From Phycisphaerae bacterium (GTDB lineage Bacteria; Planctomycetota; Phycisphaerae; Sedimentisphaerales; Anaerobacaceae), in contig JAGOLX010000062.1 of NCBI GenBank assembly GCA_017993835.1, positions 1-33,097 on the forward strand: 33,097 nucleotides of DNA, written 5' to 3'. Position numbers and translations under genes: made by a program. Below are positions 11,862 through 25,908 of the stretch, piece by piece (positions within the stretch are counted from its first letter, which is position 1; every line of letters begins with the position of its first letter). The notes under the pieces are model-generated. The model ran no database searches. It saw only the letters and a list, made by a program, of their open reading frames with translations, and had not been told where the DNA came from.

Positions 11862-14800
11862 TCAGCGGTCGCCCGCAAGATAGCGGATCTGCGCCTCCGA
11901 CAAAGCCCGGCTGTAAATGCGGAAATCGGCGAGCGAGCCGGTGAAGAGGGCGTCGGCCTCGAACTGGGAATCGCCCAGGTAGTTCTGCGTCGTGACGCCG
12001 AGGTCCTTCGGCAGCACCATCGTGGCGCCGCTGGCCACCATCTCGCCGTCCAGGTACAACTGCATGGTCATGGCCACGCTGTCCATCACGACTGCGACAT
12101 GATGCCACCCCACCGACATTCTCGAGGGGGCCGTCAGCGTCTGCTCGCCGACGGCGTCGGTCCGGATGGCGAACCGCATCGTGCTGGAGGTCGTCATGCT
12201 GGGCGTCAGGAACATGTAATTAGTCGTGCTGGAGCCGAAGTCGAAGACCCTCTGCCAGTCGCCGCTGGCGTCGGGGAAGCTCATGTACACCGCGATCGTC
12301 ATGTCGCTCAGCGAGCTGATGACCGAGCCGATGGGCAGCGTCACGTAGCCATTGATGCCGTTGAAGATCAGGGCCTGGCCGTAACCGGATGGCGCGGCCT
12401 CGTAGCCCGCATCGCCTTCGATCGTGCCGTGATTGCCTTTGCCGGAACTGTCCTGGGCATTGCCGTCGAAGTTGTAGTTGGCGACGATGCCCGCGGCGCC
12501 CGGATCGGCCGGCGTGACCACCTCCGGCGCGGCGGCGTACAGACGGATGTCATCAACGTAGATCGTCCCGGTCCCGGCGGTCTTGCCGTCGCCGATGCCG
12601 ATCGTGAGGCTCTTGACGCTCTTGAGATTGGCGCCCGTCGCGGCCAGATCGATGTTCCACTGCTTCCACAGCGGCATCGTGGTCGCCCCGGCGCCGGCGT
12701 TGTAGACCACCTTCGTGTCGTTGATCTTCACATACAGCGTGGCCGACGTGTTCGCGGCCAGACCCTGCCAGTAGAGGACCAGCGTCTTGACGCCGTGCGC
12801 GGACCAGTTCTGGGCGGTGTCAAACGTCCGCTTGGTCTCGGAGTAGGGCGCTGTGCTGGTGTTCTCATAGGCCAGCGGCATGGACTGGTAACCGCCGTGG
12901 ACGATCGTCCGCTCGGCAAACGGCGCCTCGCCGTATCCGACAATGGAGCCATTGGAGTCGTCTTCATAACCGTCGCCCCATGTCTGGAAGATCGCCTCGC
13001 CGGCGTTCATGTCGTCACCGTAGCTCTCGAAATCATCCACGACGACGTACTCGGCCGTGGTGAACGTCCAGACCTCCCCTTCCCAACTCGCCGGGTCCTC
13101 GGCATTGTTGACTTCCACGACCTTCCAGAAGTAGCTCTGGCCCATGTCGAGCGAGATCTCGTGCTGGGTTTCCGAGGTCGTGACAACGTCCGCGGTGCCG
13201 CCGAACACCGCCTGCTCGTCCGTGCTCAGGTACACCTGGTGCGAAGCAGCTTCACGTCCAGCCCGCCAGCTCAGGGTCACCTGCGGGTCCACACCTGTAT
13301 CGCCGTCGTCGGGACTGGGCTCCCGGGCGGCAACCGGGACAGAGTAGAAGCGAACCTCGCTCAGGCTGTACTGCTTGAAGACGCCGCCCCAGTTGCTGAG
13401 GATCGTGAGCTTGACATACTTGGCCACGATGCCGCCGAGATCGACGCTCTGGGGCGACAGAGGCGCCCCGGTGCCCTGGGTCAGCTCCACGTCGCCCAGC
13501 GTCGTCCACGTGCTGCCGTCGGTGGAGTACTCGACGGTGGCGTCCTTGACGCCGAGCCCGAAGTCGATCTCCATGGCCTGATTCGAGTTCCAGACCAGCA
13601 CGTGATCCACCTTGTAGACGCCGGGGAATTCATACTGGATCCACGTGGGCGGCACCACGTTCTTCTTGCTGAGCCACATGGTCTTCGAGTCGTCCCCATG
13701 CTCATCGTAGTCGTCCAGGCCGGAGCGGTCGACCGTCTTCTCCGGACCCGAATTGGCGCTGTAGGAGCTGGAGGCGGTGGCGGTGACGCCCGTGATCGCA
13801 TAGGCGTACGGCTCCACCGTGAACATCCAGACATCGCCGGGGTACAGGGTCCCGTCGGCGCCCACCTCATCGACTCGCCAGTAATACGTCTGCCCGAACT
13901 CCAGGACGCCGATGTCATAGGAGTTGGCGTCCTGACCCGTCGCGAGGGCGACCCCCAGCGGGTCGGTCCTCGACGCGGCGGCGACCGTCTCCCTGTCGGT
14001 TGCGAAGTAGACATCGTGGGCGGCTGCACTCTCGTATGGCGTCCAGCTCAGCACGACGTCGCGGACCACATCCTCGCTCTCGTTGGCCGGCACGGCGTTG
14101 TAGGCCTTCATCATTGGCACTACCTGCGGCCCCTCAAGACGGAATTCGTCGAACGCCGCATATCCCTCGCTGGAGGTAAACGTGGCTTGGTGTACCCCGA
14201 CTTGCACAGGCAGTCCGTCAAGGTCAGACCGCTCCAGCCCGGTGAAGGCAGCGTCAGGGTAGTCGGTCCAAGTCACGCCATCGCTGCTGGTCCGAAGGTA
14301 GAATGTATTGTCGACTCTCTCGATTTGCAGGTATGTGTACCCATTCCAGCCTGTGCCATTTCCACCGACATCCTCCGATCGCGCGTCGTTATCGGCGTAT
14401 CGGACGATATTGCCGACGCTGTAGAGAGGGAAATAGTCAATGGAAATCCAGTCCTCGCCAGTGCCGGCGTCTGCATCGGAAGCGACTCTGGCCATCAATC
14501 CACAATTGTTGTAAAGGACCGCAGACGCAGACGTGCCGGCATAGTCAGTGACTTTCACCGTCGCGACAAAATCCCCTTTGACCACCTTGTAAAGGAAGGG
14601 GCCCAGGGGGCTCCACGGCTCAGACCAGTATGCGCCGGATGACTGGAGAAACAACTGACCGGACCGGTCCATTGAGGCATTGATGGCGGAGGCGGTTTCA
14701 CCAGCGGCACCGCCGATCAGGCCGTCCCAGCCCGTGCTTCCGACGCCGTCAGCAAGGTAATCGCGGGCCGTGTCAAAACTGTCGGTGAACACCCCCGCAC

Positions 14801-14864
14801 GGACCCCGCCGGCGGCGCACAGAAGCAGCGCGATGCAAACCAGGTACCCCAGTTCTCTACTCAT
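11862..14864 (-). CDS. Large secreted multidomain carbohydrate-binding protein (DUF1349-like, F5/8C, LamG)
   Basis: This is a 1000-residue protein. The start at 14864 is set by GGAGG (14871-14875) and a signal peptide (MSRELGYLVCIALLLCAAGGVRA); the longer open frame upstream is spacer. In order it has: a concanavalin-like region at about 25-240 (FTDSFDTARDY); a fibronectin-like repeat at about 250-345 (AYNAVPANESEDVVRDVVLSW); an F5/8 type C (CBM32-like) domain at about 355-505; a second fibronectin-like repeat at about 510-600 (PSPDDGDTGVDPQVTLSW); a module running from VVDDFESYGDD to DDIRLY at about 607-775 that recurs in Phycisphaerae-type secreted proteins; and a C-terminal Laminin_G_3 domain at about 792-995. 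I see no catalytic domain, dockerin or obvious cell-wall anchor. A role in binding polysaccharide or surfaces is likely. It has its own promoter and a downstream hairpin. Confidence 0.82.
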   Translation of the reverse strand: MSRELGYLVCIALLLCAAGGVRAGVFTDSFDTARDYLADGVGSTGWDGLIGGAAGETASAINASMDRSGQLFLQSSGAYWSEPWSPLGPFLYKVVKGDFVATVKVTDYAGTSASAVLYNNCGLMARVASDADAGTGEDWISIDYFPLYSVGNIVRYADNDARSEDVGGNGTGWNGYTYLQIERVDNTFYLRTSSDGVTWTDYPDAAFTGLERSDLDGLPVQVGVHQATFTSSEGYAAFDEFRLEGPQVVPMMKAYNAVPANESEDVVRDVVLSWTPYESAAAHDVYFATDRETVAAASRTDPLGVALATGQDANSYDIGVLEFGQTYYWRVDEVGADGTLYPGDVWMFTVEPYAYAITGVTATASSSYSANSGPEKTVDRSGLDDYDEHGDDSKTMWLSKKNVVPPTWIQYEFPGVYKVDHVLVWNSNQAMEIDFGLGVKDATVEYSTDGSTWTTLGDVELTQGTGAPLSPQSVDLGGIVAKYVKLTILSNWGGVFKQYSLSEVRFYSVPVAAREPSPDDGDTGVDPQVTLSWRAGREAASHQVYLSTDEQAVFGGTADVVTTSETQHEISLDMGQSYFWKVVEVNNAEDPASWEGEVWTFTTAEYVVVDDFESYGDDMNAGEAIFQTWGDGYEDDSNGSIVGYGEAPFAERTIVHGGYQSMPLAYENTSTAPYSETKRTFDTAQNWSAHGVKTLVLYWQGLAANTSATLYVKINDTKVVYNAGAGATTMPLWKQWNIDLAATGANLKSVKSLTIGIGDGKTAGTGTIYVDDIRLYAAAPEVVTPADPGAAGIVANYNFDGNAQDSSGKGNHGTIEGDAGYEAAPSGYGQALIFNGINGYVTLPIGSVISSLSDMTIAVYMSFPDASGDWQRVFDFGSSTTNYMFLTPSMTTSSTMRFAIRTDAVGEQTLTAPSRMSVGWHHVAVVMDSVAMTMQLYLDGEMVASGATMVLPKDLGVTTQNYLGDSQFEADALFTGSLADFRIYSRALSEAQIRYLAGDR

Positions 14865-14939
14865 GCTTGTCCTCCTTCCAGGAAATCGTTCACGTATGAC
14901 GCTTGGACCTTTGCGAAGAGCGTTTTGCGTAGCAAGGTT

Positions 14940-14968
14940 ATTATAGCCGTTCGGGCCTGCCAGAGCAA
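14940..14968 (-). promoter_or_regulatory. Promoter of the 1000-residue surface protein gene
   Basis: A perfect TATAAT (14940-14945, minus strand) lies 17 nt from TTGCTC (14963-14968, 3/6 match to -35). The leader to the ATG at 14864 is about 70 nt. The spacer 14865-15231 holds this promoter and the inverted REP pair at 15113-15188, and nothing else I can support. Confidence 0.55.
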
Positions 14969-15112
14969 GCGCCGCAGCTACGGAAAACGGACCCTGCGCA
15001 AGAAGAGGAGACGATTCACCGATTTGCGATGAGCATTCCCTTCCCGGTCCTGTGGACGGCGTTCGTGCAGACATCGTTGGTATCGACAGACAGGACCGTG
15101 AAGAACCTCCGC

Positions 15113-15188
15113 GTTCACAGTGACGCCGTAAGGCGTTATCATCCCTTTGAAAGCCGTGAAGACAGGCCCCTACGGGCCCACTACGAAC
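15113..15188. repeat. REP-like inverted pair (REPIN), copy 1
   Basis: Two modules face each other. Module a (plus, 15113-15143) reads GTTCACAGT, stem GACGCC, loop GTAA, stem GGCGTT, tail ATCATC. Module b (minus, 15158-15188) reads GTTCGTAGT, stem GGGCCC, loop GTAG, stem GGGCCT, tail GTCTTC. Each stem pairs over 6 bp, counting one G-T in each. The head GTAG next to a hairpin foot is the known signature of REP elements, which travel as inverted pairs with a RAYT transposase. A second copy with different stem sequence lies at 23365-23434. Confidence 0.8.
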
Positions 15189-15231
15189 CCGGCTCGACGC
15201 TTCACAAATGACCGCCTTCTGCCGCTCCGGA

Positions 15232-18135
15232 TCATTCCACCACCTCGACTTTGATTGTCACGGGTTCGCTACAACGCAGGCCGTCGAGGACCCAGAACCT
15301 GTACTCGACTGTGCCCGGCTTGTCCGGCGCCTTGAGTCGAATAACCGAACCTTGATGGAGATCGAGCGGAGGCCTCGGCGTCTTCTCGCTCCAACGGTAA
15401 TAGAGCCGCTGGCCTTCCGGGTCGTAGCTCCGCGAGCCGTCGATCTCGAACTCCTGGTTGCAGCGGACGGTCATCTCGGCCTGCGCGACGGCCACCGGCC
15501 GCTGGTTCGTCTCACGAATCGCGTCAGGGACGGGCTTTCGAACGACAGGCGTCGGCTCAGATGGCGACGTCAGGCTCGTGCGAATCGGGTACGTGCCGCA
15601 GACTTGCCGGCCGGCCAGAAATGCCTCGTTGAACGCCATGAGGTCCATGAAGTGAATCTCCTGCTGCGTGTTCGGTGTCCTGTGGCGTAGCCTGGAAGAA
15701 GGCGAATCCGCTTGGAGTTCCGCGTTTACGCGGTCCTGGGCCGCCTGAAGGCGGGATTCCGAGCCCCTGGCGTCGATCCGAATCATCAGCGACCCCTCGA
15801 CCGTCCAGACGTTCGGCGTGAATGCGGTGTCCGTTTTGGCACCTCCAAACGGGTTCCACACGGAGATCGCACCATCGACCTTGTCGGTCTCGGGGTCGTC
15901 CCACTCGGCGTCCGTCTCGTTGGGAAACACGAAGCGTCCCTCGTCGTCGGTCTGCCCGATGAATTTCCGACGGTCGGCGAAGTACTTGGCGCCGCTGTCC
16001 TGCACCGGCGCCTGGGCGACGTGGTAGACGTAAACCGCGGCGTTCCGCAATGGTTGATCGTCACGATCGTAGATCAGCAGCCAGTTCGCCCGCGTGGGGA
16101 TGAGACGACCTTGCGTGCCCCAGAACCGGTCCTGGCGATAGCCTTTGTAGTGCAGGATATGTCCCGCCTGCGAGGGGTGGAGCCAGAGCTGGCAGCCGTC
16201 CATGAGCGATACGTACCCGCCGCCACAAGGGATGTTCACGCCCGGCGAGAACGGCATCAGCTCGTCGCCCTCGACCACAGGCAGCAAGGGCGAACCCGCG
16301 TAGGGTTTGCCCTCGTCGTCGGTGAGCAGGATGTTGCAGGCGCGGACGCCGTAGCCGTAGAGGTCGGGCTGGCTGAGGATCGTGTGCCCGAACTCGTGAA
16401 TGATCGCGGCGTCCACCGCCATCAGGTCCACCGGCTCGTTCACAGGGAATCCGCCGTCATAGTAAACCATCTGCTCCTCGTAGGCCTGGGCGCAGTTCTC
16501 CGCGGTGGTGTCGAGCGCCGTCATCGCGTCGATGCGGTAGGCCTCTTCGACGCCGTGTGGCCCGGTCGTCGGCCAGACCGCCTCACGGAGCATGACGTCC
16601 ATCCGCAGCTTCTGCGCACGGAGCCAGTCGTAGTAGCTCAGGGAGCCGACGTGGTTGATCCGCTTCTCGACCAGACAGGACTTCAGCACGTTGGGATCGT
16701 AGCCGAACTGGACCGGGCGGGCGTCCGTCCGCTCGAACGACTCGTTGTTGGCCTCGCAGAACTCGTCGACCTGCTCGTCGGGGTCCAGGAGGACCCGCAT
16801 CCACAGGGGCCGGTCCGGATAGGGGAACTGGAACTCGACCGCGGTCTCGTCGCCCGGTTCGAGACTGCGATCCACCGCCGCGGAGAACGTCTGTTTCGGC
16901 GCGATGGCGGGATCGAATCGATATCCGTCCGTCGCAGAGACCGGCACAAGGTCCAGGCGGACCCGGGCGCCCGCGGGCAGCGCCGCCAGGCCGAAGTTGC
17001 CCATGCGAATGCGTGCGGTCATGTTCTCACCTGACGAAGGGCGGTCCTTGACCGCGTCGTTGCGGTAACGAGGGTGCAGCTCGACACAGATCAAGCCGAG
17101 GTCCGGCTTGTCGGGCGAAACCACCTCCAGCGAATAGCTGACCCGGTATTGCCGGAACTTGGCGAAAACGCTGCACCGGCCCGGCTGCAGGGCCTTCACT
17201 CGGCCGTCCTCGTCGACGGTCGCGACCGATTCGTCCGTGCTCGCCCACGTGATGAACGGCTTGGCGTCGAAGTACCCCCACTGGGCATAGCGAGCCGCGA
17301 AGTCCGTGATCGGCTCCCATCGCCCGTCGCATCGGGCGAGAAGGCCAAGCTGCTTCTCGAAACCCGCGACGGCGCGCATATCCGACGGCACGCGCAGCGG
17401 ACTGAGATCCGTCCGAATGCCGTCGTACGGCGCGGTGCGGAAGTAATCGCGGTAGACCGAAGCGACCAGACCCCAGCCGCCTTCCGCGTCGAGATGGTCC
17501 CGGCAGATCAGCTCGTCGAGATCCGCCTGAGCGGACGGATCGCCGATCCAGACCCGCGAGTCGCCCATGGTCTTCGGGTCCAGGAACCGACAGCCTGCCG
17601 CGATCGGGCCGTCGACCGCCACCCGGTCGATCCAGAGCGGAAGTCCGACCGGCTGATCCCCGTTCGAGAACCAGGCCAGGACGATGTGATGCCACTTCCC
17701 CGCCCGCCAGGCGGAGACGTCGGCGCGGGCGACCGTGATCCTCTCGGGACTGGCCATCGTGCAGCGGAGCATCCCGCGCGCGGATTTCTCGAGGAGCAGA
17801 CCGTTGCCCGTCGGGTCGCCAATGCGGAGCAGGCGATGAGCTTGGCCGTCGTCGCCATTCCATTTCGGCCGGACCCAGAAGCTGATGTAGCCCTGACGCT
17901 GCGACAGCGAGGGCCACTCCACCGGCGCCGCGTCGACGAGCGAGACACCCTGGCCGTACGTGCCCACAGCCGCAGGCAGCGAGTCGATCAGCTCCAGGCT
18001 CCGAGCAGCCCCTGGGACGTTCGCATCTGTGAACCAGGCGACTTGCGTATCTGCCTGGGCAACCAAGCAAGGCAGGATCAGGCCAAGGAGCGCACTGCCC
18101 GCCAGTTTCATCGACAACCTGTAATCAAACGACAT
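15232..18135 (-). CDS. Secreted multidomain protein with an M6-like HEFGH metallopeptidase core
   Basis: This 967-residue protein starts at 18135, 7 nt after AAGGAG, and has a signal peptide ending near AQADT. In order it has: a LamG-like N-terminal domain at about 30-225; a Big_2-type Ig domain at about 289-336 (ITWASTDESVATVDEDG); a CARDB-like domain at about 344-467 (VDEFCEANNES); a catalytic-looking region with HEFGH at residues 580-584 followed by PDLYGYG; and a PKD-like domain at about 877-960 (IDGSRSYDPEG). HExGHxxxxPDLY followed by a 'YVSLMDG' segment recalls M6 (immune inhibitor A-like) peptidases, but the wider sequence is not a clear M6 member and the third zinc ligand is not proven. 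The substrate could be glycoprotein or matrix protein. It lies 44 nt after the GH65-like gene, likely in the same transcript. Confidence 0.72.
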   Translation of the reverse strand: MSFDYRLSMKLAGSALLGLILPCLVAQADTQVAWFTDANVPGAARSLELIDSLPAAVGTYGQGVSLVDAAPVEWPSLSQRQGYISFWVRPKWNGDDGQAHRLLRIGDPTGNGLLLEKSARGMLRCTMASPERITVARADVSAWRAGKWHHIVLAWFSNGDQPVGLPLWIDRVAVDGPIAAGCRFLDPKTMGDSRVWIGDPSAQADLDELICRDHLDAEGGWGLVASVYRDYFRTAPYDGIRTDLSPLRVPSDMRAVAGFEKQLGLLARCDGRWEPITDFAARYAQWGYFDAKPFITWASTDESVATVDEDGRVKALQPGRCSVFAKFRQYRVSYSLEVVSPDKPDLGLICVELHPRYRNDAVKDRPSSGENMTARIRMGNFGLAALPAGARVRLDLVPVSATDGYRFDPAIAPKQTFSAAVDRSLEPGDETAVEFQFPYPDRPLWMRVLLDPDEQVDEFCEANNESFERTDARPVQFGYDPNVLKSCLVEKRINHVGSLSYYDWLRAQKLRMDVMLREAVWPTTGPHGVEEAYRIDAMTALDTTAENCAQAYEEQMVYYDGGFPVNEPVDLMAVDAAIIHEFGHTILSQPDLYGYGVRACNILLTDDEGKPYAGSPLLPVVEGDELMPFSPGVNIPCGGGYVSLMDGCQLWLHPSQAGHILHYKGYRQDRFWGTQGRLIPTRANWLLIYDRDDQPLRNAAVYVYHVAQAPVQDSGAKYFADRRKFIGQTDDEGRFVFPNETDAEWDDPETDKVDGAISVWNPFGGAKTDTAFTPNVWTVEGSLMIRIDARGSESRLQAAQDRVNAELQADSPSSRLRHRTPNTQQEIHFMDLMAFNEAFLAGRQVCGTYPIRTSLTSPSEPTPVVRKPVPDAIRETNQRPVAVAQAEMTVRCNQEFEIDGSRSYDPEGQRLYYRWSEKTPRPPLDLHQGSVIRLKAPDKPGTVEYRFWVLDGLRCSEPVTIKVEVVE

Positions 18136-18179
18136 TCATGCACTCCTTCTGGTGATTGAATGAATCCGGTTCCCCGTTT

Positions 18180-20369
18180 TCACGGCATCCGCTGGAGGCC
18201 TTCCCATCGCACGTCCCATTTCCCGTTCTTCGGGAATCCGGGCGCGGGGCCGTCGGGACAGCCGTCCCAACCTGCGGCCATCATCGCCACCGCGGTCAGC
18301 AGGCCGCCGTTGCCCGGAAGGTACAGAGGCAGCCGGGCCGATTGGTAGTTGTGCCCGTTGGCGAGGTAGCGGTTCTTGGGCGAATCCAGGAACAGCGCAT
18401 CGACCGCCTCTTCCGGCTCGCCCAGCCGGGCGGCGGTCATCGCCAGCATGGGATAGTCCCACCCCCACGTGCTCGCCCAGTCCCAGTCTGCAACTACGCT
18501 GTCGTATGTTCGCTTCATTACATCGGGATCAATGAACGGCTTGGAAGTAGGCCCGATCTGCCTTTTTCCAAGCCTCAGCGGCGTGGCAGGCACGACCCCG
18601 AGTGCCGCGACCATTGTCGGATGGTCGCGACGGATCGTGTACGGCGGGGTCTCGATCCCCGTGTAGACACCCTCGCGAACGGTGGGTCGCGAGAGCCCGC
18701 GGATCACCTCATCCCACTTCGCATCCCGCTCCAGGCCAAGACGCAATCGCCACTGTTGGGCGGTCTCCAGGGCCCAACGCCAATACGCCAGTTCGAAGGT
18801 CGGATTGAGGTTGCGGGCCTTGTCGGGTCCGTAGCTCTCCTGGGCGGGGATCATCGCCGGTCCCAGGACGTAGCGACGATTCGTCTCGTCCCACACAGGA
18901 TACGACGCCATGAACTCAGCGGTCTCGAAGACAATCCGCCGATAGCGATCCAACGTCTCTGCGTTCGGGCGAGCACGATAGCACAGTTCCGCGTAGTAGA
19001 TCGGATGTGGCTGTTGCCAGATCAGGAACACGCCCACGCTGCTGGGGCTCTCGCGCCCGTCCGGGCCGACCATCTTGGGCCAGCGGGCACCGGCATAGCC
19101 CTGGAGTTTCGCGGTGCCCTCGGCCATTGGGAGGATGGAATCGTACCATGCCAGGCTTCGCTCCAGGAGCTCGATCCGGTCCCACAGCGCGAAATGCACC
19201 CCGTGCCACCAGTGCATCTCCAGATGCGATTTGCCGTGCCAGCTATTGGCGGTGAGACCCGTCTCCTGGGGCAGGCGGGAGCCCGCGCACTGGATCGCCA
19301 TGAGGTATTGCGACAGCACGACCCTCCGCTCCAGTTCCGACGCACGCGGATCGGTGCACCGTGAGAAGTCGATGGCCCCGCCGGACTGCCAGAATCGCTG
19401 CCAGTGGTTCGCCGCCGCGGCGCGGACTTCGTCGAAGCTCGGCAGGGATTCGGTGATCTCCGTCGGCGAAAATGCGATGACCACTTCCAAGGCCGCGCCG
19501 TCCTGTTGGAGGATCTCGTACTCGTGCTGTGACTGCATCTGCATCCGACCGCCCTGTGACCAGGCCATCCGAACGTAGTAGCGGTCCGCGTCAAGGCTCC
19601 GCGCCAGGTCCGCCTGTCCATCGGTCATGCGGCACGTCGTCGTGTGCCGATCCGCCAGGCTCCAATCCGCGGCCTTGCCCCAGTCGGTGCTGCCATAGGG
19701 AAACGCCAGGCGAACCGCGAGTCGCTGCTGTCCCAGCAGAGGCGACTCGATCCGCACCGCCAAGAGGTCGCGCGACGGATGGCACATCGTCAAGACTGTC
19801 ACCGGCGTCCCTTCCACTTTTAAGCGGCTGGACAATAACCCGGTCCACAAATCGAGGCTCTGAACAGTCTCGGTCAGGTCGTCGATGGTCGCCCGGGAGC
19901 CGTCGGACTTGGTGATGCGCAGGCCGATCTGCCCGAGGTGCAGACGATGGGGATTGGCTCTCAGCCAGTTCGCAGCGGGCGAGTATCCGCCCGAGGGCGC
20001 GCCGCCTGCGGCGTAGGGGACTTCGCGCCCCGCGACGGTGTAGCAGTTCATCGCATCTGCGAGCGTGTAACCCTCCGTGTTCGGCAGGCTGTGCCAGCCC
20101 CACTGGGAAAGCGTGCCCAGCGACATGGCCTTGAGATGGTAGTCGGGGAACGTCTGAAGGCCTGTGATGTCCGCGGTGAAGGCGAACTCCCCGTTGCCGA
20201 CGCTCAGCGGGGTCAACGGATCGGGCTTGTCGAGCGTGACATTGTGCCGTGTTACCAAGGCGTGCCGGTCGATCCGGGCGGACTCGCCCGCCTGGGCGAG
20301 GACGCACCCCGCCAGCACGCCCATCACCACCAGGATTCTGCAACGAACTGTCACGGTTTCTGGGGACAT
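18180..20369 (-). CDS. Exported GH65-like six-hairpin glycosidase, unassigned family
   Basis: This 729-residue protein starts at 20369 with GGAGA 7 nt upstream and a signal peptide (to about residue 27, AQAGES). An N-terminal beta-sandwich begins DPLTPLSVGNGEFAFTADITG. The (alpha/alpha)6 part carries WHGKSHLEMHWWHGVHFALW, QGYAGARWPKMVG, LIWQQPHPIYYAELCYR and PAQESYGP. These recall GH65 and its relative, protein-glucosylgalactosylhydroxylysine glucosidase, where the acidic residue near the WxxExHW helix helps catalysis. It is probably an inverting glycosidase acting on an unknown glycan, or a phosphorylase-fold relative. Its start lies inside the 3' end of the phosphoesterase gene (19-nt overlap), which suggests translational coupling. 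Confidence 0.75.
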   Translation of the reverse strand: MSPETVTVRCRILVVMGVLAGCVLAQAGESARIDRHALVTRHNVTLDKPDPLTPLSVGNGEFAFTADITGLQTFPDYHLKAMSLGTLSQWGWHSLPNTEGYTLADAMNCYTVAGREVPYAAGGAPSGGYSPAANWLRANPHRLHLGQIGLRITKSDGSRATIDDLTETVQSLDLWTGLLSSRLKVEGTPVTVLTMCHPSRDLLAVRIESPLLGQQRLAVRLAFPYGSTDWGKAADWSLADRHTTTCRMTDGQADLARSLDADRYYVRMAWSQGGRMQMQSQHEYEILQQDGAALEVVIAFSPTEITESLPSFDEVRAAAANHWQRFWQSGGAIDFSRCTDPRASELERRVVLSQYLMAIQCAGSRLPQETGLTANSWHGKSHLEMHWWHGVHFALWDRIELLERSLAWYDSILPMAEGTAKLQGYAGARWPKMVGPDGRESPSSVGVFLIWQQPHPIYYAELCYRARPNAETLDRYRRIVFETAEFMASYPVWDETNRRYVLGPAMIPAQESYGPDKARNLNPTFELAYWRWALETAQQWRLRLGLERDAKWDEVIRGLSRPTVREGVYTGIETPPYTIRRDHPTMVAALGVVPATPLRLGKRQIGPTSKPFIDPDVMKRTYDSVVADWDWASTWGWDYPMLAMTAARLGEPEEAVDALFLDSPKNRYLANGHNYQSARLPLYLPGNGGLLTAVAMMAAGWDGCPDGPAPGFPKNGKWDVRWEGLQRMP

Positions 20370-21313
20370 TGCAGTTCTCCGCTTACGGCCTTGCGGTAAC
20401 CGGTGACGACCAGGCTCCGATCCGGCCGCACTTCAACAACAGCGTAGGAATTGTTCTCTTGGCCTTGGCCTTCCACGACGCCCTTGAGCGTGTAGTAGGG
20501 AATCCCCTCGATGCAGCTATGAGCCCCTGCGTGATGATGTCCCTGGAAGACCGCGAGGACCTTGCGGGACTCCTGCAGGACTGCTCGGACCTCCGCTGCG
20601 TTGTTCACGTAGAGATCGCCGGTCCCATCGAGCAACTGGTGAACGAAAACGACAACGGGACCTCGGGCAGTCGCCAAATCCTGTCTGAGCCAGTCGAGCT
20701 CGTGACGTGGGATGTTCGCATCGGTCCAGTCGAAGTTGCCGCGATCGTAATCGGCGCCGTCGGCCTTATAGTTGGCGTCGAGCACGACACAGTGCAGACC
20801 TCGCACGTCGAACGAATAGTAGGTTCGACTCGGATCGATGCCTGTGCTCTCGACATTCTGGAAGAACTGCCCTTTCGAGATGCAGTCTACATCGTGATTG
20901 CCGAGCACGTGGTATCGCGGGCCGGCGAAGCCCTGGAACACATCCTCGATTGTCCGGAGGTATTGCAGCGTCCTGCTCTCGACGGGCGGCCCGTCCTCGT
21001 CCTTCAGATCGCCCAGCTCGACGAGAAAGTCCACTCGTTCCGCGTTCATCCGCGCGACGCACTCGGACAGCTTGTCCAGCGACTCGCGATAGAACCGCGT
21101 GCCCGCTGGCTCGGTGTCGGCATAGTGACAGTCCGTGACGATCCCGAATCGGACCGGCCGGCGTCCAGTTCTTGACGGCCCGCCCGGCGCACACGAGGAC
21201 GAGACAAGAGCCGTTCCCGCAGCCACGGCCGCCGCTGATTGCAGAAGGACCCGGCGGCCGATTTCCCACGATTCCGCAGAGTGCCGATTTCCGTCCCGGG
21301 CATTCTCATTCAT
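20351..21313 (-). CDS. Calcineurin-like metallophosphoesterase with Tat-like leader
   Basis: This 320-residue protein shows the metallophosphoesterase motif set in order: IVTDCHYA (DxH), ELGDLKDE (GDxxD type), LGNHD, VFVHQ, and FQGHHHAGAH (GHxH). The N-terminus contains GRRVLLQSAAAVAAGTALVSSSC, a twin-arginine-like export signal ending in a Cys that might be lipidated, though the lipobox is imperfect. ATG 21313 is chosen over a GTG at 21322; neither has a clear Shine-Dalgarno, so the start is uncertain. The protein would act outside the cytoplasm on a phosphate ester or nucleotide. Such proteins are frequent beside polysaccharide-degradation genes in Planctomycetota and Bacteroidota. Its 3' end overlaps the GH65-like gene. 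Confidence 0.85.
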   Translation of the reverse strand: MNENARDGNRHSAESWEIGRRVLLQSAAAVAAGTALVSSSCAPGGPSRTGRRPVRFGIVTDCHYADTEPAGTRFYRESLDKLSECVARMNAERVDFLVELGDLKDEDGPPVESRTLQYLRTIEDVFQGFAGPRYHVLGNHDVDCISKGQFFQNVESTGIDPSRTYYSFDVRGLHCVVLDANYKADGADYDRGNFDWTDANIPRHELDWLRQDLATARGPVVVFVHQLLDGTGDLYVNNAAEVRAVLQESRKVLAVFQGHHHAGAHSCIEGIPYYTLKGVVEGQGQENNSYAVVEVRPDRSLVVTGYRKAVSGELQCPQKP

Positions 21314-21388
21314 GCCGCACACACATCAGATGATCCAGAATACCTCGCCGCGTGCAGACGTCGAACGAACCCGACCTATCTATGCGGT

Positions 21389-21480
21389 TGTCATCCTGAG
21401 GCGCAGCCGAAGGATCTGGGCCGAGGACAGAAGGTCCCTCCCGATCGCAGGCCAGATCCTTCACTTCGTTCAGGATGACA
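21389..21480. repeat. Inverted pair of TGTCATCCTGA modules
   Basis: The left module (21389-21417) starts TGTCATCCTGAGG and ends AAGGATCT. The right module (21454-21480), read on the minus strand, starts TGTCATCCTGAACG and also ends AAGGATCT. Each module has its own small dyad (ATCCT/AGGAT), and the pair forms a larger palindrome. This motif is widespread in genomes of several uncultured or environmental phyla. It fills the spacer between the amidotransferase stop and the phosphoesterase start (21314-21570), where no gene is seen, and could also act as a transcription barrier. Confidence 0.75.
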
Positions 21481-21570
21481 GAATCGCAACCGGGCACGAC
21501 TCTTTCCAAATCCTTGCCCTATCGAAGGCACGCGGCTTTCACTCGCGCATTGTAGCAGACGATCGTGACC

Positions 21571-22275
21571 TCAGACAACCTGTTCTCGACGCAATATGGA
21601 ATCGAGGAGTGTGAAAAGCAGTTCGCGGGTGCGCTCTACTTGATCGAATCGTGCCAGGATTTGTTCCCGGCTCTGGATGAATGGGGCATCGGTCAGTTCG
21701 CAGGCACAGTGGGCGAGCATGCTGTGGATGCTGTCGGCCGTGTATTCGAGATGACATTGCAGGCCGACAGCGCGTCCGGAGTATTCAAACGCCTGGTTGG
21801 GACATGCTTCGCTCTGCGCCAGGCGTCTGGCGCCGGGCGGGATGTCAAAGGTGTCGCCGTGCCAGTGGAAGGCATGGAACTCGGTCGGCAGGCCGTGGAA
21901 CAGGTCCGAGTCGCGGGCTTCCGCCGTCAGGCGGACCGGGAACCAGCCAATCTCGACGTGAGGGTTCTGCGTCACCTTCGCGCCCAGAACGTCGGCCAGG
22001 AGCTGGGCGCCGAGGCAAACGCCAAGGATCGAAACGCCCCTGGCGACGGCCCGCTCGATGAACGCCTTTTCTCTCTTGAGCCAGGGGTGGTTGCGGTATT
22101 GGTAGACGTTCATCGGTCCGCCCATAATCGCGAGCAGGCCTATGTCGTCGATCTCGGGCAGCGGCTCATTCTCATAGAGCCGTGTTCGGGTCACGATGTG
22201 GTTGCGGCTCTCGGCCCAAACCGCGATATTGGCGGCATCCTCAAACGGCACGTGTTGCAGGTAGTGGACTCTCAT
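21571..22275 (-). CDS. Class I glutamine amidotransferase (GMP synthase-like GATase1 domain)
   Basis: This 234-residue single-domain protein has the GATase1 triad: Cys87 in GVCLGAQLLA, His175 and Glu177 in QCHLEY. IMGGPMNVYQ matches the glycine-rich oxyanion region. There is no signal peptide, so it is cytoplasmic. Stand-alone GATase1 proteins of this kind are often annotated as GMP synthase-like or as gamma-glutamyl hydrolase relatives. The physiological acceptor is not evident and no synthase partner is nearby. The ATG is 7 nt after the GH43 stop, so it is part of the arabinan operon by position, which is an unexpected neighbour. Confidence 0.87.
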   Translation of the reverse strand: MRVHYLQHVPFEDAANIAVWAESRNHIVTRTRLYENEPLPEIDDIGLLAIMGGPMNVYQYRNHPWLKREKAFIERAVARGVSILGVCLGAQLLADVLGAKVTQNPHVEIGWFPVRLTAEARDSDLFHGLPTEFHAFHWHGDTFDIPPGARRLAQSEACPNQAFEYSGRAVGLQCHLEYTADSIHSMLAHCACELTDAPFIQSREQILARFDQVERTRELLFTLLDSILRREQVV

Positions 22276-22282
22276 GGGCAGC

Positions 22283-23341
22283 TCACTTCGACGATTCGGG
22301 GATTCCCACGACGGGCCAGCCGTCCTCGGTCCAGGTCAGAGGTCGGAGGGCGTACTTCGAGACGCCCCAGGGGGTGCTGCCGTCATAGAAGTGCATCCCG
22401 AGCCAGTACCGGTCGCCCTCCTTCAGGATGCCGGCGTGGCCCGGCCCGATGAACGCGCCGTCCGTGTCGAGCAAAAGGGTGCCGCCGCCTTCGAGCATGT
22501 CCTTGTCCTCCTTGTCCAGGTAGGGCCCGGTGATCGTCGGGCTGCGTCCGACCCGCATGTTGTACGTGCTGTTGACGCCCCGACAGCACATGCCCCAGTT
22601 CAGGAACAGGTAGTAGATCCCGTCGCGATGGTAGATGAACGGCGCCTCGATGGAATCGTAGTGCGCCAACGCGTGGATCGGGGAATCGGGGGCAATCCGC
22701 CTGCCGGTGGTTGGGTCGAGCTGAATCAGCTTGATGCCTCCCCAGAACGAGCCGAAGGCGAGCCAGAGGTTGCCGTCGGCGTCCTGCGCCACCGCGGGGT
22801 CGATGGTGTTGAAATCGTCGCGCGGGCTCGACTGGATCACAATGCCGCCGTCCTTCCATTCGTAGGCGGGATCGCACGGGTCCAGCGTGACATTGGTGGC
22901 CAGTCCGATGGCGGAGGTGTTCTTCCCGAAGGTCGAGACGGAGAAGTAGAGCAGATACCGGTCGCGAAAACGGATGACGTCCGGCGCCCAGAAGTCCAGT
23001 CCGCCGCGATTGCCCGGCACCGCCTGGGCCACCCACTCGGGCGACTTCGTGAACGTCTGCGGCCCGCGCTCCCACGTGACAAGGTCCTTCGAGCGGTAGC
23101 TGGGCGTGCCTCGACCGGTGCAGAAGATCCAGTACTCGTTTTTGCACTGGACGATGGTAGAGGGGTCGTGGACGCGAATCCCGCGACTGCCCAGCTTGAG
23201 CACGTGGGCAACCGCGTTCGGATCGGCGGGAGGTTCCGGCGGGCGGCCCGGCCGGGAAGGGCCGACGGGCTGAGCCCACCCTGTCGTCGTCGCGGAGACG
23301 ATTGCACCCAACACAATCCAAGAATGAACTGCGATCTTCAT
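22283..23341 (-). CDS. GH43 endo-1,5-alpha-L-arabinanase-like enzyme
   Basis: This is a 352-residue protein. ATG 23341 is chosen because a signal peptide follows (MKIAVHSWIVLGAIVSATTTGWAQ); the frame upstream runs into the REP pair. The five-bladed propeller of clan GH-F is indicated by Asp59 (VHDPS, general base), Asp181 (NTIDPAV, pKa modulator) and Glu232 (SIEAPF, general acid). FGSFWGGIKLIQLD, NSTYNMRVGRS and IGPGHAG are typical of the arabinanase subfamilies. It would cut the alpha-1,5-arabinan backbone outside the cytoplasm and supply oligomers to the GH51 and GH146 enzymes encoded upstream. There is no extra binding module. AAGG lies close before the start. Confidence 0.9.
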   Translation of the reverse strand: MKIAVHSWIVLGAIVSATTTGWAQPVGPSRPGRPPEPPADPNAVAHVLKLGSRGIRVHDPSTIVQCKNEYWIFCTGRGTPSYRSKDLVTWERGPQTFTKSPEWVAQAVPGNRGGLDFWAPDVIRFRDRYLLYFSVSTFGKNTSAIGLATNVTLDPCDPAYEWKDGGIVIQSSPRDDFNTIDPAVAQDADGNLWLAFGSFWGGIKLIQLDPTTGRRIAPDSPIHALAHYDSIEAPFIYHRDGIYYLFLNWGMCCRGVNSTYNMRVGRSPTITGPYLDKEDKDMLEGGGTLLLDTDGAFIGPGHAGILKEGDRYWLGMHFYDGSTPWGVSKYALRPLTWTEDGWPVVGIPESSK

Positions 23342-23364
23342 AACGACCTTAGACAAATCGCGGC

Positions 23365-23434
23365 GTTCGTAGTAACGCCGTAAGGCGTTGTCTTCCTTGT
23401 CTCGATGATATGCTCTCGCGAGCACACTACTAGC
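23365..23434. repeat. REP-like inverted pair (REPIN), copy 2
   Basis: Module a (plus, 23365-23395) reads GTTCGTAGT, stem AACGCC, loop GTAA, stem GGCGTT, tail GTCTTC. Module b (minus, 23404-23434) reads GCTAGTAGT, stem GTGCTC, loop GCGA, stem GAGCAT, tail ATCATC. Module a has a perfect 6-bp stem, and in b all six positions pair (one G-T). The pair lies in the 177-nt spacer between GH146 and GH43, just upstream of the GH43 start, so it would be in the mRNA leader. Confidence 0.8.
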
Positions 23435-23518
23435 TTACCGTTCAACCGTCGCGGCCGAACGCAATACGGTCGGCGAACTCGCACAAGACGTCACGCGGAA
23501 TTCCGCGTCGTCGATCGT

Positions 23519-25858
23519 TCATTGGGACGTCTTCAGGATCGCGCAACCGAAGATGCCGCCGGCGGTCATGCCGGGATGGGCCTGGAACTTCACGGTCACG
23601 CCGGTCTTGTTCTCGATGAGGTTCCTGGGCAGCGGATAGGTCTCGTCATAGAACACGCCGGGCTTGTTGTTCTCCAGCTTCTTCGTGACGATCTTGACGT
23701 CGTCCACGAGGATGTCGAACTCGCGCCCGCCGGCATCGCTGCCCCAATAGGCGATGCGAAGCTCCTGCGGAACCTCCGCGAGCACCTTGAGCGTGTAGGA
23801 GAACCAGCCGCCTTCGCTGGCGTGACGCCACGCCCGCCCGAAGTGGAGGCCGGAGGCGGTCCGCTCGCCCTTCATCGCGTGGGCGGGCTCGGATCGCGGA
23901 TCGCCGATGGCGACCTCATCCACCGTCCGAAGCTTCAGATCGCGCTGGACCTTCTGCTCCGCGAGGAATTGCTCGTGCTCGGGACTGCCCTTGCGGAAGA
24001 CCCGCCAATACACTGCGTATCGCTCGCCAAAGAGCTGATGGTACGGCACGAGCGTGATGTTCTTCTCGAGCCCGACCGTGCGGAACGCCGGCGGGTTGTC
24101 GGAGACCATCTCGATGCACGTCGTGAGGTCGTCGCTGTCGGCCAGCAGGACCGGCGCCTCGGCGATCCGATCTCGCGGGAACTGGTACCATTGGTCCTTG
24201 AGGTAAACCACGTCGTCGGTGAGTCCCTGGCTGCCCAGCTTGCCGGCCAGGACGAGTGGGCCGTACATGAAGGCGACCACCGTCTTGTCGTCGGGCATCG
24301 GCGCGACGCCCAGGCTCATGGGCATCGGGATGTCGAGCCGGTCGCCATCGGCCCACGTCCTTCGGATGGCCATGTAGCTCGAAGGCCGGGCCACGGCGGA
24401 AAATGGCTTGCCATTCAATTTCACTATGACGCCCTGCCTGGCCCAAGCCGGGAGGCGGACGCGAAGCACGAAGTCCTTGGGCCGCTTCGTGTGGATCGTC
24501 AGCGACGTGGCCGGCTCGTCGGGCCATCGCGTCTCCTGGCGAATGCGGACGCCCTTGTCGGCCCAGTTCAGCTCCGACGCGATGAACAGGTTCACGAAGA
24601 CCCCGTCCTCGTCGTGATAGTAAATCGTGTCGCCGTACTTGGCGTGGTTCTCCATCCCGGTCCCGGTGCAGCACCAGAAGCACTCGGTCGGCAGGTTGTA
24701 GGTCTTCCATCGCCCGGACGCCAGCGGGACGAAGTACATCATCATGCCGGTCTTTGGGTCCTGCGTGCTCAAGATGCTGTTGAACAGGGCCCGTTCATAA
24801 TAGTCCATGTACTCGGCCTTCGGCTCCCAGGAGAACAGATGCCGCGTGAGTTTGAGCATATTGTAGGTGCAGCAGGTTTCCTGCGTGTGGTCGCCGAGCT
24901 CCGTGGCCAGTTTGTTTGGATCGGTCCGCCAGTGCTCGTCGTTGCTCGTGCCGGCGGTGCAATAGCAGCGATGCCTGACGACCTGATGCCAGAAGTACTC
25001 AGCAATCCAACGGTCCCGGGCGTCGCCCGCCATTTCATATTGCCTTGCGGTCCCGATGACGTTCGGAATGAATGAGTTGACATGCTGACCCTTGAGCTGG
25101 TCCTGTCCGGCCGCAAGGGGCTCGACGTACGTCCGCTGCACGAAACGCCGGGACAGGGCCAGGTGGTCCGGGTTGCCCGTGATCGTGTAGAGATTGGCGA
25201 GCGCCTCGTTCATGCCCCCCTGCTCGGTGCTGTTGAGCATTTGCTGCATCTGCTCTTCGGAGAGCTTGTCGCAGCGGCCCTTGCACCAGCGGGCCATGCC
25301 TTCGAGAATCTCCAGTGCCTGCCGATTGCCGCAGTACTCGTACGAATCGAGCAGCCCGGCCAGAATCTTGTGCAGCGTGTAGTATGGCGCCCACACCTGT
25401 TGACGGGCCTCCACGCGGTCGATGAACGACTCGGGATAGGCACTGAGATAGCCGCTGGCGCCGAGGGCCTTCTGGCACTTCGCAAGTTCCGCGACGATCC
25501 CATCGATCCGTGTCTTGAACTGCTCGTCGCCCGTGCTGGCGTACATCATGGCGCACGCGGAGAGATAGTGTCCCATGGTATGTCCGCGAAGCTCAGAACC
25601 TTCCCACCCGCCATAAGACCGCCCCGGCGCGGGCAGGCCCGCGGTGGCTCGGAATTCGTACAGCAGCCGGTCCGGCTCCAGCGACAGCAGGTACTGTCGG
25701 TCTCGTTCCATTGTCTCCTTGAACGGCCCATCGAGCAGACGAACATCCCGTAACGAGAACGCCCGAGCCTTCAATGGAACAACAGGTTGAGTTCCGCTCG
25801 CCGGCAAGTTCCACGCCACGACAGCAAGACACATAAACAACGGACTCAAGCGTCTCAT
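23519..25858 (-). CDS. GH146/GH127-type beta-L-arabinofuranosidase
   Basis: This is a 779-residue protein. The start at 25858 is fixed by GGGAGGT (25864-25870) and the signal peptide MRRLSPLFMCLAVVAWNLPASG; an ATG nine codons earlier lacks both. DUF1680 spans about 35-560, with YGGWEGSELRGHTMGHYLSA typical of GH146 enzymes such as BT0349. The zinc and nucleophile residues are present as E327-T-C329-C330 and C396-C397 (FWCCTGTGMENHAKYG). A C-terminal beta domain (about 600-775) follows. Family members release beta-L-arabinofuranose from plant glycans by a Cys nucleophile. It complements the alpha-specific GH51 70 nt upstream in the transcript. The substrate is inferred from family. Confidence 0.88.
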   Translation of the reverse strand: MRRLSPLFMCLAVVAWNLPASGTQPVVPLKARAFSLRDVRLLDGPFKETMERDRQYLLSLEPDRLLYEFRATAGLPAPGRSYGGWEGSELRGHTMGHYLSACAMMYASTGDEQFKTRIDGIVAELAKCQKALGASGYLSAYPESFIDRVEARQQVWAPYYTLHKILAGLLDSYEYCGNRQALEILEGMARWCKGRCDKLSEEQMQQMLNSTEQGGMNEALANLYTITGNPDHLALSRRFVQRTYVEPLAAGQDQLKGQHVNSFIPNVIGTARQYEMAGDARDRWIAEYFWHQVVRHRCYCTAGTSNDEHWRTDPNKLATELGDHTQETCCTYNMLKLTRHLFSWEPKAEYMDYYERALFNSILSTQDPKTGMMMYFVPLASGRWKTYNLPTECFWCCTGTGMENHAKYGDTIYYHDEDGVFVNLFIASELNWADKGVRIRQETRWPDEPATSLTIHTKRPKDFVLRVRLPAWARQGVIVKLNGKPFSAVARPSSYMAIRRTWADGDRLDIPMPMSLGVAPMPDDKTVVAFMYGPLVLAGKLGSQGLTDDVVYLKDQWYQFPRDRIAEAPVLLADSDDLTTCIEMVSDNPPAFRTVGLEKNITLVPYHQLFGERYAVYWRVFRKGSPEHEQFLAEQKVQRDLKLRTVDEVAIGDPRSEPAHAMKGERTASGLHFGRAWRHASEGGWFSYTLKVLAEVPQELRIAYWGSDAGGREFDILVDDVKIVTKKLENNKPGVFYDETYPLPRNLIENKTGVTVKFQAHPGMTAGGIFGCAILKTSQ

Positions 25859-25863
25859 AGCCG

Positions 25864-25870
25864 ACCTCCC
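25864..25870 (-). promoter_or_regulatory. Ribosome binding site that sets the GH146 start
   Basis: GGGAGGT on the minus strand lies 5 nt before ATG 25858 and excludes the upstream ATG at 25885 as the main start. Confidence 0.75.
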
Positions 25871-25908
25871 GCCTACAGAAGGCACTCACTACCATGCGAC
25901 AGCGGTAG

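Follow-up and report, generated by a model that had tools for sequence, protein, structure and literature searches.

A REP family of head-to-head dimers with two unlike arm types in a Phycisphaerae genome, and a RAYT gene between its modules in a relative

The window analyzed here is a stretch of 33,097 nucleotides, contig C64 of a 6.37-Mb Phycisphaerae draft genome (115 contigs; G000 denotes this genome). It contains four short hairpin modules which very probably constitute two REPINs of one RAYT-copied REP family, each consisting of a type A and a type B module placed head to head around a spacer that is not conserved. A REP/REPIN reading had been put forward in a first-pass annotation of the window; the number of copies in the genome, the controls, the paired stems and the inverted pairs all support it. 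What is new is a REPIN family spread through a genus of the Phycisphaerae that follows an unusually clean rule of combining unlike arms only.

The two REPINs of the window

All four 31-mers are present where the first-pass annotation placed them, with the heads, loops, tails and orientation that it gave (Table 1). Direct reading confirmed that all six stem positions pair in each module, counting G-T, and that the gaps between modules, given as 8-14 nt, are indeed 14 nt in REPIN 1 and 8 nt in REPIN 2. Allowing up to three mismatches, the head-and-tail pattern has six matches in the window against 1.67 expected, a number reached in 0 of 100 shuffles, and four of these six are the modules themselves. 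No Rfam family was found in the window.

Both B-type modules face the end of a minus-strand gene: the outer end of the B-like module of REPIN 1 is 43 nt from the stop codon of the gene at 15232-18135, and that of the B module of REPIN 2 is 84 nt from the stop codon of the gene at 23519-25885, which encodes a GH127 beta-L-arabinofuranosidase. The minus-strand genes near both REPINs (11862-25885) resemble those of a polysaccharide-degradation region, and one of them (11862-15074) encodes a large protein that has discoidin and laminin-G-like domains.

Table 1. Modules and spacers of the two window REPINs, and the RAYT genes discussed in the text. Stems are given as 5' side/3' side; scores are those of the covariance model.
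Feature	Coordinates	Strand	Head	Stem	Loop	Tail	Score (bits)	Remarks
REPIN 1, type A module	15113..15143	+	GTTCACAGT	GACGCC/GGCGTT	GTAA	ATCATC	41.3	read directly
REPIN 1, spacer	15144..15157	.						14 nt, differs among copies
REPIN 1, type B-like module	15158..15188	-	GTTCGTAGT	GGGCCC/GGGCCT	GTAG	GTCTTC	39.3	read directly
REPIN 2, type A module	23365..23395	+	GTTCGTAGT	AACGCC/GGCGTT	GTAA	GTCTTC	42.5	
REPIN 2, spacer	23396..23403	.						8 nt; spacer of the orthologous REPIN in G004 is 27 nt and unrelated
REPIN 2, type B module	23404..23434	-	GCTAGTAGT	GTGCTC/GAGCAT	GCGA	ATCATC	33.8	
G245 RAYT	G245:C7 75748-76140; L296 1396-1995							between inverted modules of the family
C62 RAYT	L174 5516-6136; region G000:C62:89359-90248 (L174 5360-6248)							between pairs of the sister REP

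A genome-wide family with paired stems

Further copies whose stems keep pairing, as the first-pass annotation expected, are plentiful. Among the matches listed, a strict head-and-tail pattern occurs 18 times in the genome and its reversed control not at all, and a covariance model built from 39 distinct copies gave at least 148 matches at E<=0.001 in the 6.37 Mb, a lower bound as 150 of 2165 candidates were scored. In these 39 copies, whose selection dropped a few obvious non-hairpin pattern matches and is to that extent biased toward pairing, 98.3% of the stem cells are paired, compared with 72.4% after shuffling. The covariation score of the same copies is 0.617 (0.190 shuffled, with 0 of 500 shuffles as high), and four of the six stem positions show two-sided change.

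The copies fall into two main stem types, A (GACGCC/GGCGTT) and B (GTGCCC/GGGCAT or GTGCTC/GAGCAT), and much of the covariation therefore represents one old A/B split, that is, few ancestral events. Compensatory variants are also found within the types (GTGCTC/GAGCAT, GTGTCC/GGACAT, GTGGCC/GGCCAT and GACTCC/GGAGTT), and another genus carries the compensatory stem GGCGTC/GACGCT. The earlier claim of compensatory change holds in that paired stems are kept, with some compensation inside each type, but the variation among the four window modules is mostly that of a two-type system with A+B pairing.

Across the 39 copies, head columns A7, G8 and T9 are invariant and G5 and T6 nearly so; with their paired stems, the modules fit the description of a GTAG-tagged REP, a short palindrome of 20-40 nt beside GTAG. 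In 35 of the 39 the stem base is a G-T pair on the head-first strand. Because this pair turns into a mismatch on the opposite strand, the head-first strand of each arm is marked as the one that folds, and since the arms are inverted, the folding strand differs between A and B. A strand-specific stem base fits an enzyme that reads each arm separately; TnpA_REP is reported to bind REP and not its reverse strand (PMC8266576).

Three of the four window loops are GNRA, as the first-pass annotation had written, but the loops of the family as a whole form the wider class GNNA (193 of 207 tallied, with GTCA occurring 23 times). Among all fetched loci, GTAA loops are present in 56 of 79 B arms and 53 of 123 A arms, the A arms being more variable (GTGA, GTCA, GCAA).

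Carriers of the family are assemblies of Phycisphaerae and other Planctomycetota, and a class-wide search located it in a few other genera and families, a patchy taxonomic spread. In the isolate CSMAG_2510, from another family of the class, four direct tandem A modules with a 36-nt period precede one inverted B (L136 3545-3755). The idea that the tail ATCTTC provides a conserved CT cut site was rejected, as the tail is not retained in genome G032 of another genus (g25).

Unlike arms are joined head to head

An inverted two-module pattern has 37 matches in the genome among those listed, with none for the reversed-pattern control. All of these except L026, which has no hairpin pair, are real head-to-head pairs, and all 36 are A+B. 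The head-to-head orientation likewise prevails over all fetched loci, where it accounts for 63 of 73 close neighbors; of these 63, 59 are A+B and four come from a sister family whose head is GTTYGGAGT-like. Typed head-to-head pairs of the family itself are thus A+B in 59 of 59 cases, compared with 48% mixed pairs if arms combined at random at the observed type frequencies, and the rule extends to all nine typed dimers in G032. Single modules are common.

The REPIN arrangement proposed for the window, inverted REP pairs around a short and diverse spacer, is borne out by these copies. Spacers, with a commonest length of 9 nt, are unrelated among most copies; L021 and L071 have a common spacer and about a dozen common flanking bases per side. 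Four orthologous loci have kept their arms, in the same order, and differ in the spacers (for example, 8 versus 27 nt and 27 versus 103 nt). The long spacers of L105, L121 and L141 (assembly VGYL, G003) contain another repeat, with the palindrome GCGGGCATCCTGCCCGC, reminiscent of one repeat landing in another.

The presence of REPIN 2 varies among sister species, in line with the RAYT-copied reading. G001 and G006 lack it in the interval flanked by the same gene pair; G004 has it next to the same neighbor, with about 2 kb of extra DNA ahead of the GH127 gene. An exact empty site was sought for REPIN 2 and abandoned, the inserted unit being undefinable in intergenic DNA that is too diverged. 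The elements end sharply at GTTCG. The borders of 59 dimers showed no surplus of 1-7 nt direct repeats such as a target-site duplication would leave; sharp borders without such a duplication are as expected of IS200/IS605-type chemistry.

Predicted single-strand folds

Both window dimers are predicted to fold as a single-stranded DNA junction that retains the two REP hairpins, and the DNA folding z of the dimers is about -2 to -5, consistent with the single-strand folding of a REPIN. In nearly all of 57 dimers, six stem positions interrupt the long hairpin that would join both arms. Calculated DNA energies favor a clover over the long hairpin in 34 of 46 natural A+B dimers, the mean margin being small (-11.1 versus -9.7 kcal/mol); when the same arms are recombined as A+A or B+B, the long hairpin is favored in 46 of 46, by about 20 kcal/mol.

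These energies suggest that unlike arms favor a clover-shaped single strand over one long hairpin, and the two-type rule may exist for that reason. Bertels and Rainey (PMC3116915) had put forward a clover form that a RAYT could use. Di Nocera et al. described the preference for heterodimers as having no obvious explanation and suggested that heterodimers may be protected from hairpin-removing nucleases (PMC3733652), an explanation with which our data are also compatible. The unlike-arms rule makes it testable whether heterodimeric REPINs exist to hold a single strand in a RAYT-usable clover. We do not claim that the two outer heads are selected to pair with each other: of the nine positions, one fails to pair in 22 of 57 dimers, and two-sided change is confined to a single position.

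RAYT genes and the modules beside them

The genome encodes five RAYT-like genes. No module of the family was found beside any of the five within the stretches examined of this draft (115 contigs), nor beside the RAYTs of eight sister genomes in the stretches examined there. The expected RAYT flanked by the same hairpin was accordingly not found in the stretches examined of the genome itself, but G245, a relative that belongs to another family, has one (Table 1). Two B modules and an inverted A-like module are upstream of this gene and an inverted A module is downstream; the bracketing modules represent two of only seven matches to the family in the G245 genome. The encoded protein has the motifs NHYH (HUH) and YIHSNP (Y---NP) and scores 86.3 bits, above the cut-off, with NCBIfam REP_Tyr_transpos; TnpArep 4ER8 is the one relative of solved structure that sequence comparison found.

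Among the RAYT loci collected, the closest relative of the G245 protein is the RAYT on contig C62 of our genome (39.5% full-length, E 1e-44; the next best is 5e-18). On either side of the C62 gene is a pair of the sister REP (head GTTYGGAGT, stem TCCGCC, loop TTCA), and the pairs of that REP include same-type ones. In view of the bracketing in G245 and the kinship with C62, we conclude that the REP family described here, the sister REP family and the G245/C62 RAYT subfamily go together. The C62 RAYT was rejected as the driver for the whole genus, as it is present at E<=1e-10 in only one of 37 genomes, our own. That no matching RAYT was found in the stretches examined of the genus could be due to loss, to assembly gaps, or to C62-like enzymes acting in trans.

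Neither RAYT of this subfamily has a Pfam Y1_Tnp match even at E 0.01, and both are detected by NCBIfam and TnpArep 4ER8; RAYT surveys based on Pfam would therefore overlook the subfamily. Two other RAYT genes of the genome, on C65 (G000:C65:44410-44862) and C37 (G000:C37:114809-115216), have different repeats nearby, GGTAGGGTGKGCnnnnGCMCACC in the first case and GTAGCCCAGCCGCCCnCGGCTGGGG in the second. Several REP families, each close to a RAYT of its own, seem to be present in the genome. Two further associations were judged coincidental: a decayed TnpA on C72 (G000:C72, L061 1598-2400), about 0.5 kb from a dimer of the family, is an IS200 remnant and no RAYT, and in G002 a weak RAYT match has a weak module pair at a distance of about 0.8 kb.

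In the mechanism that we propose, a RAYT, that is, a TnpA_REP-like HUH transposase, would recognize each arm as a folded single strand beside GTAG, cut it, and then copy the dimer to new sites. The enzyme is likely to be of the subfamily that is found between the same modules in G245 and has one relative in our genome. Unlike arms would keep the dimer from collapsing into one long hairpin and would expose both REP hairpins in a clover-like fold. With its gene between modules of the family, the G245 RAYT offers an enzyme and substrate pair for the clover question.

Position behind genes and alternative explanations

Positions were counted on our own codon-usage gene calls, some of the loci being orthologues. 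Most dimers with called flanks are intergenic (five are called inside an ORF), as is usual for high-copy REPs. Between genes of the same direction, the dimers are placed a median of 14 nt after the upstream stop codon and 127 nt ahead of the next start; closeness to gene 3' ends is known for REPs (PMC3733652). In 24 of 29 same-direction gaps (p=0.0005), and in 14 of 15 within our genome (p=0.001), it is the B arm that leads, and both window REPINs obey this order. We found no direction rule for a heterodimer in the REP literature covered.

Such positions, and the bias toward B first, could indicate that the dimers are kept mainly as transcribed 3' RNA hairpins that stabilize, end or tune the upstream message, RAYT copying accounting for their origin only. 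The persistence of arms and arm order at orthologous loci with differing spacers would suit this explanation, and a transcript role has been proposed for REPs near gene ends (PMC3733652). RNA folding energy, however, is the same in both directions, which led us to reject the view that RNA stability produces the direction bias, and single modules show no direction bias when one is looked for. Moreover, any transcript contains only one arm with the G-T base pair and the GNNA loop, the other being a complement, so that no single RNA presents both conserved arms, and four sister species differ in having REPIN 2. We consider an RNA element unlikely to be the main explanation. A broader proposal, which we advance tentatively and regard as doubtful, is that the A+B make-up and the B-first direction reflect a maintained function, the two arm types differing in their role in single-strand transposition or in the message and being kept by selection after the genus lost its own RAYT. 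The B-first bias behind genes could be used to distinguish the mechanics of transposition from a role at the level of the message.

Short inverted ends (GTTCGTAGTG...CACTACGAAC), many copies and a variable middle are also properties of a MITE-like element with terminal inverted repeats that is moved by an ordinary DDE transposase. That origin is very improbable, given that a target-site duplication is missing at every length tested, that the arms are hairpins with a strand-specific G-T stem base, and that the G245 modules enclose a RAYT and no DDE transposase. Ordinary intrinsic terminators, or look-alike hairpins arising by chance, would likewise be expected behind genes, but the 9-nt head is fixed although it is outside the stem, the controls have zero matches, the stems are not followed by a T-run, and the elements are patchy in taxonomic spread and missing at orthologous places. 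As heads are common to the copies, chance convergence is excluded, and we give this last explanation almost no weight.

Relation to known systems

As probable RAYT-copied REPINs, the dimers share many features with the GTAG-tagged REP superfamily (Di Nocera et al. 2013, PMC3733652), for which planctomycetes are among the listed hosts: GTAG beside a short stem-loop, head-to-head dimers, families that are exclusively heterodimeric, variable spacers and positions at 3' gene ends. The tags, the head-to-head joining of unlike arms, the diversity of the spacers and the location at 3' ends have all been described before. The present family differs in that a T lying between GTAG and the six counted pairs becomes part of the stem, in a head that extends 5 nt outside GTAG (GTTC-GTAG-T), and in its GNNA loops. 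It may still be identical with one of the consensus families listed there.

The REPINs of Pseudomonas fluorescens SBW25 (Bertels and Rainey 2011, PMC3116915) are similar in their inverted doublet unit, diverse spacer, common singlets and association with a RAYT. They are predicted to form one long hairpin, whereas the present family has unlike arms, with six positions of such a hairpin unable to pair. Two unlike REP types are likewise inverted in the dimers of Escherichia coli BIMEs, which combine y with z1 or z2 REPs (PMC8266576); the E. coli REPs are longer and have a conserved bulge, while the perfect 6-bp stems of the present family are closer to group 3 REPs (PMC8266576). The G245 REPtron and its C62 sister have in common a RAYT gene between inverted REPs, and the two differ in that the G245 modules belong to the family described here, whereas C62 carries the sister REP, some of whose pairs are of the same type.
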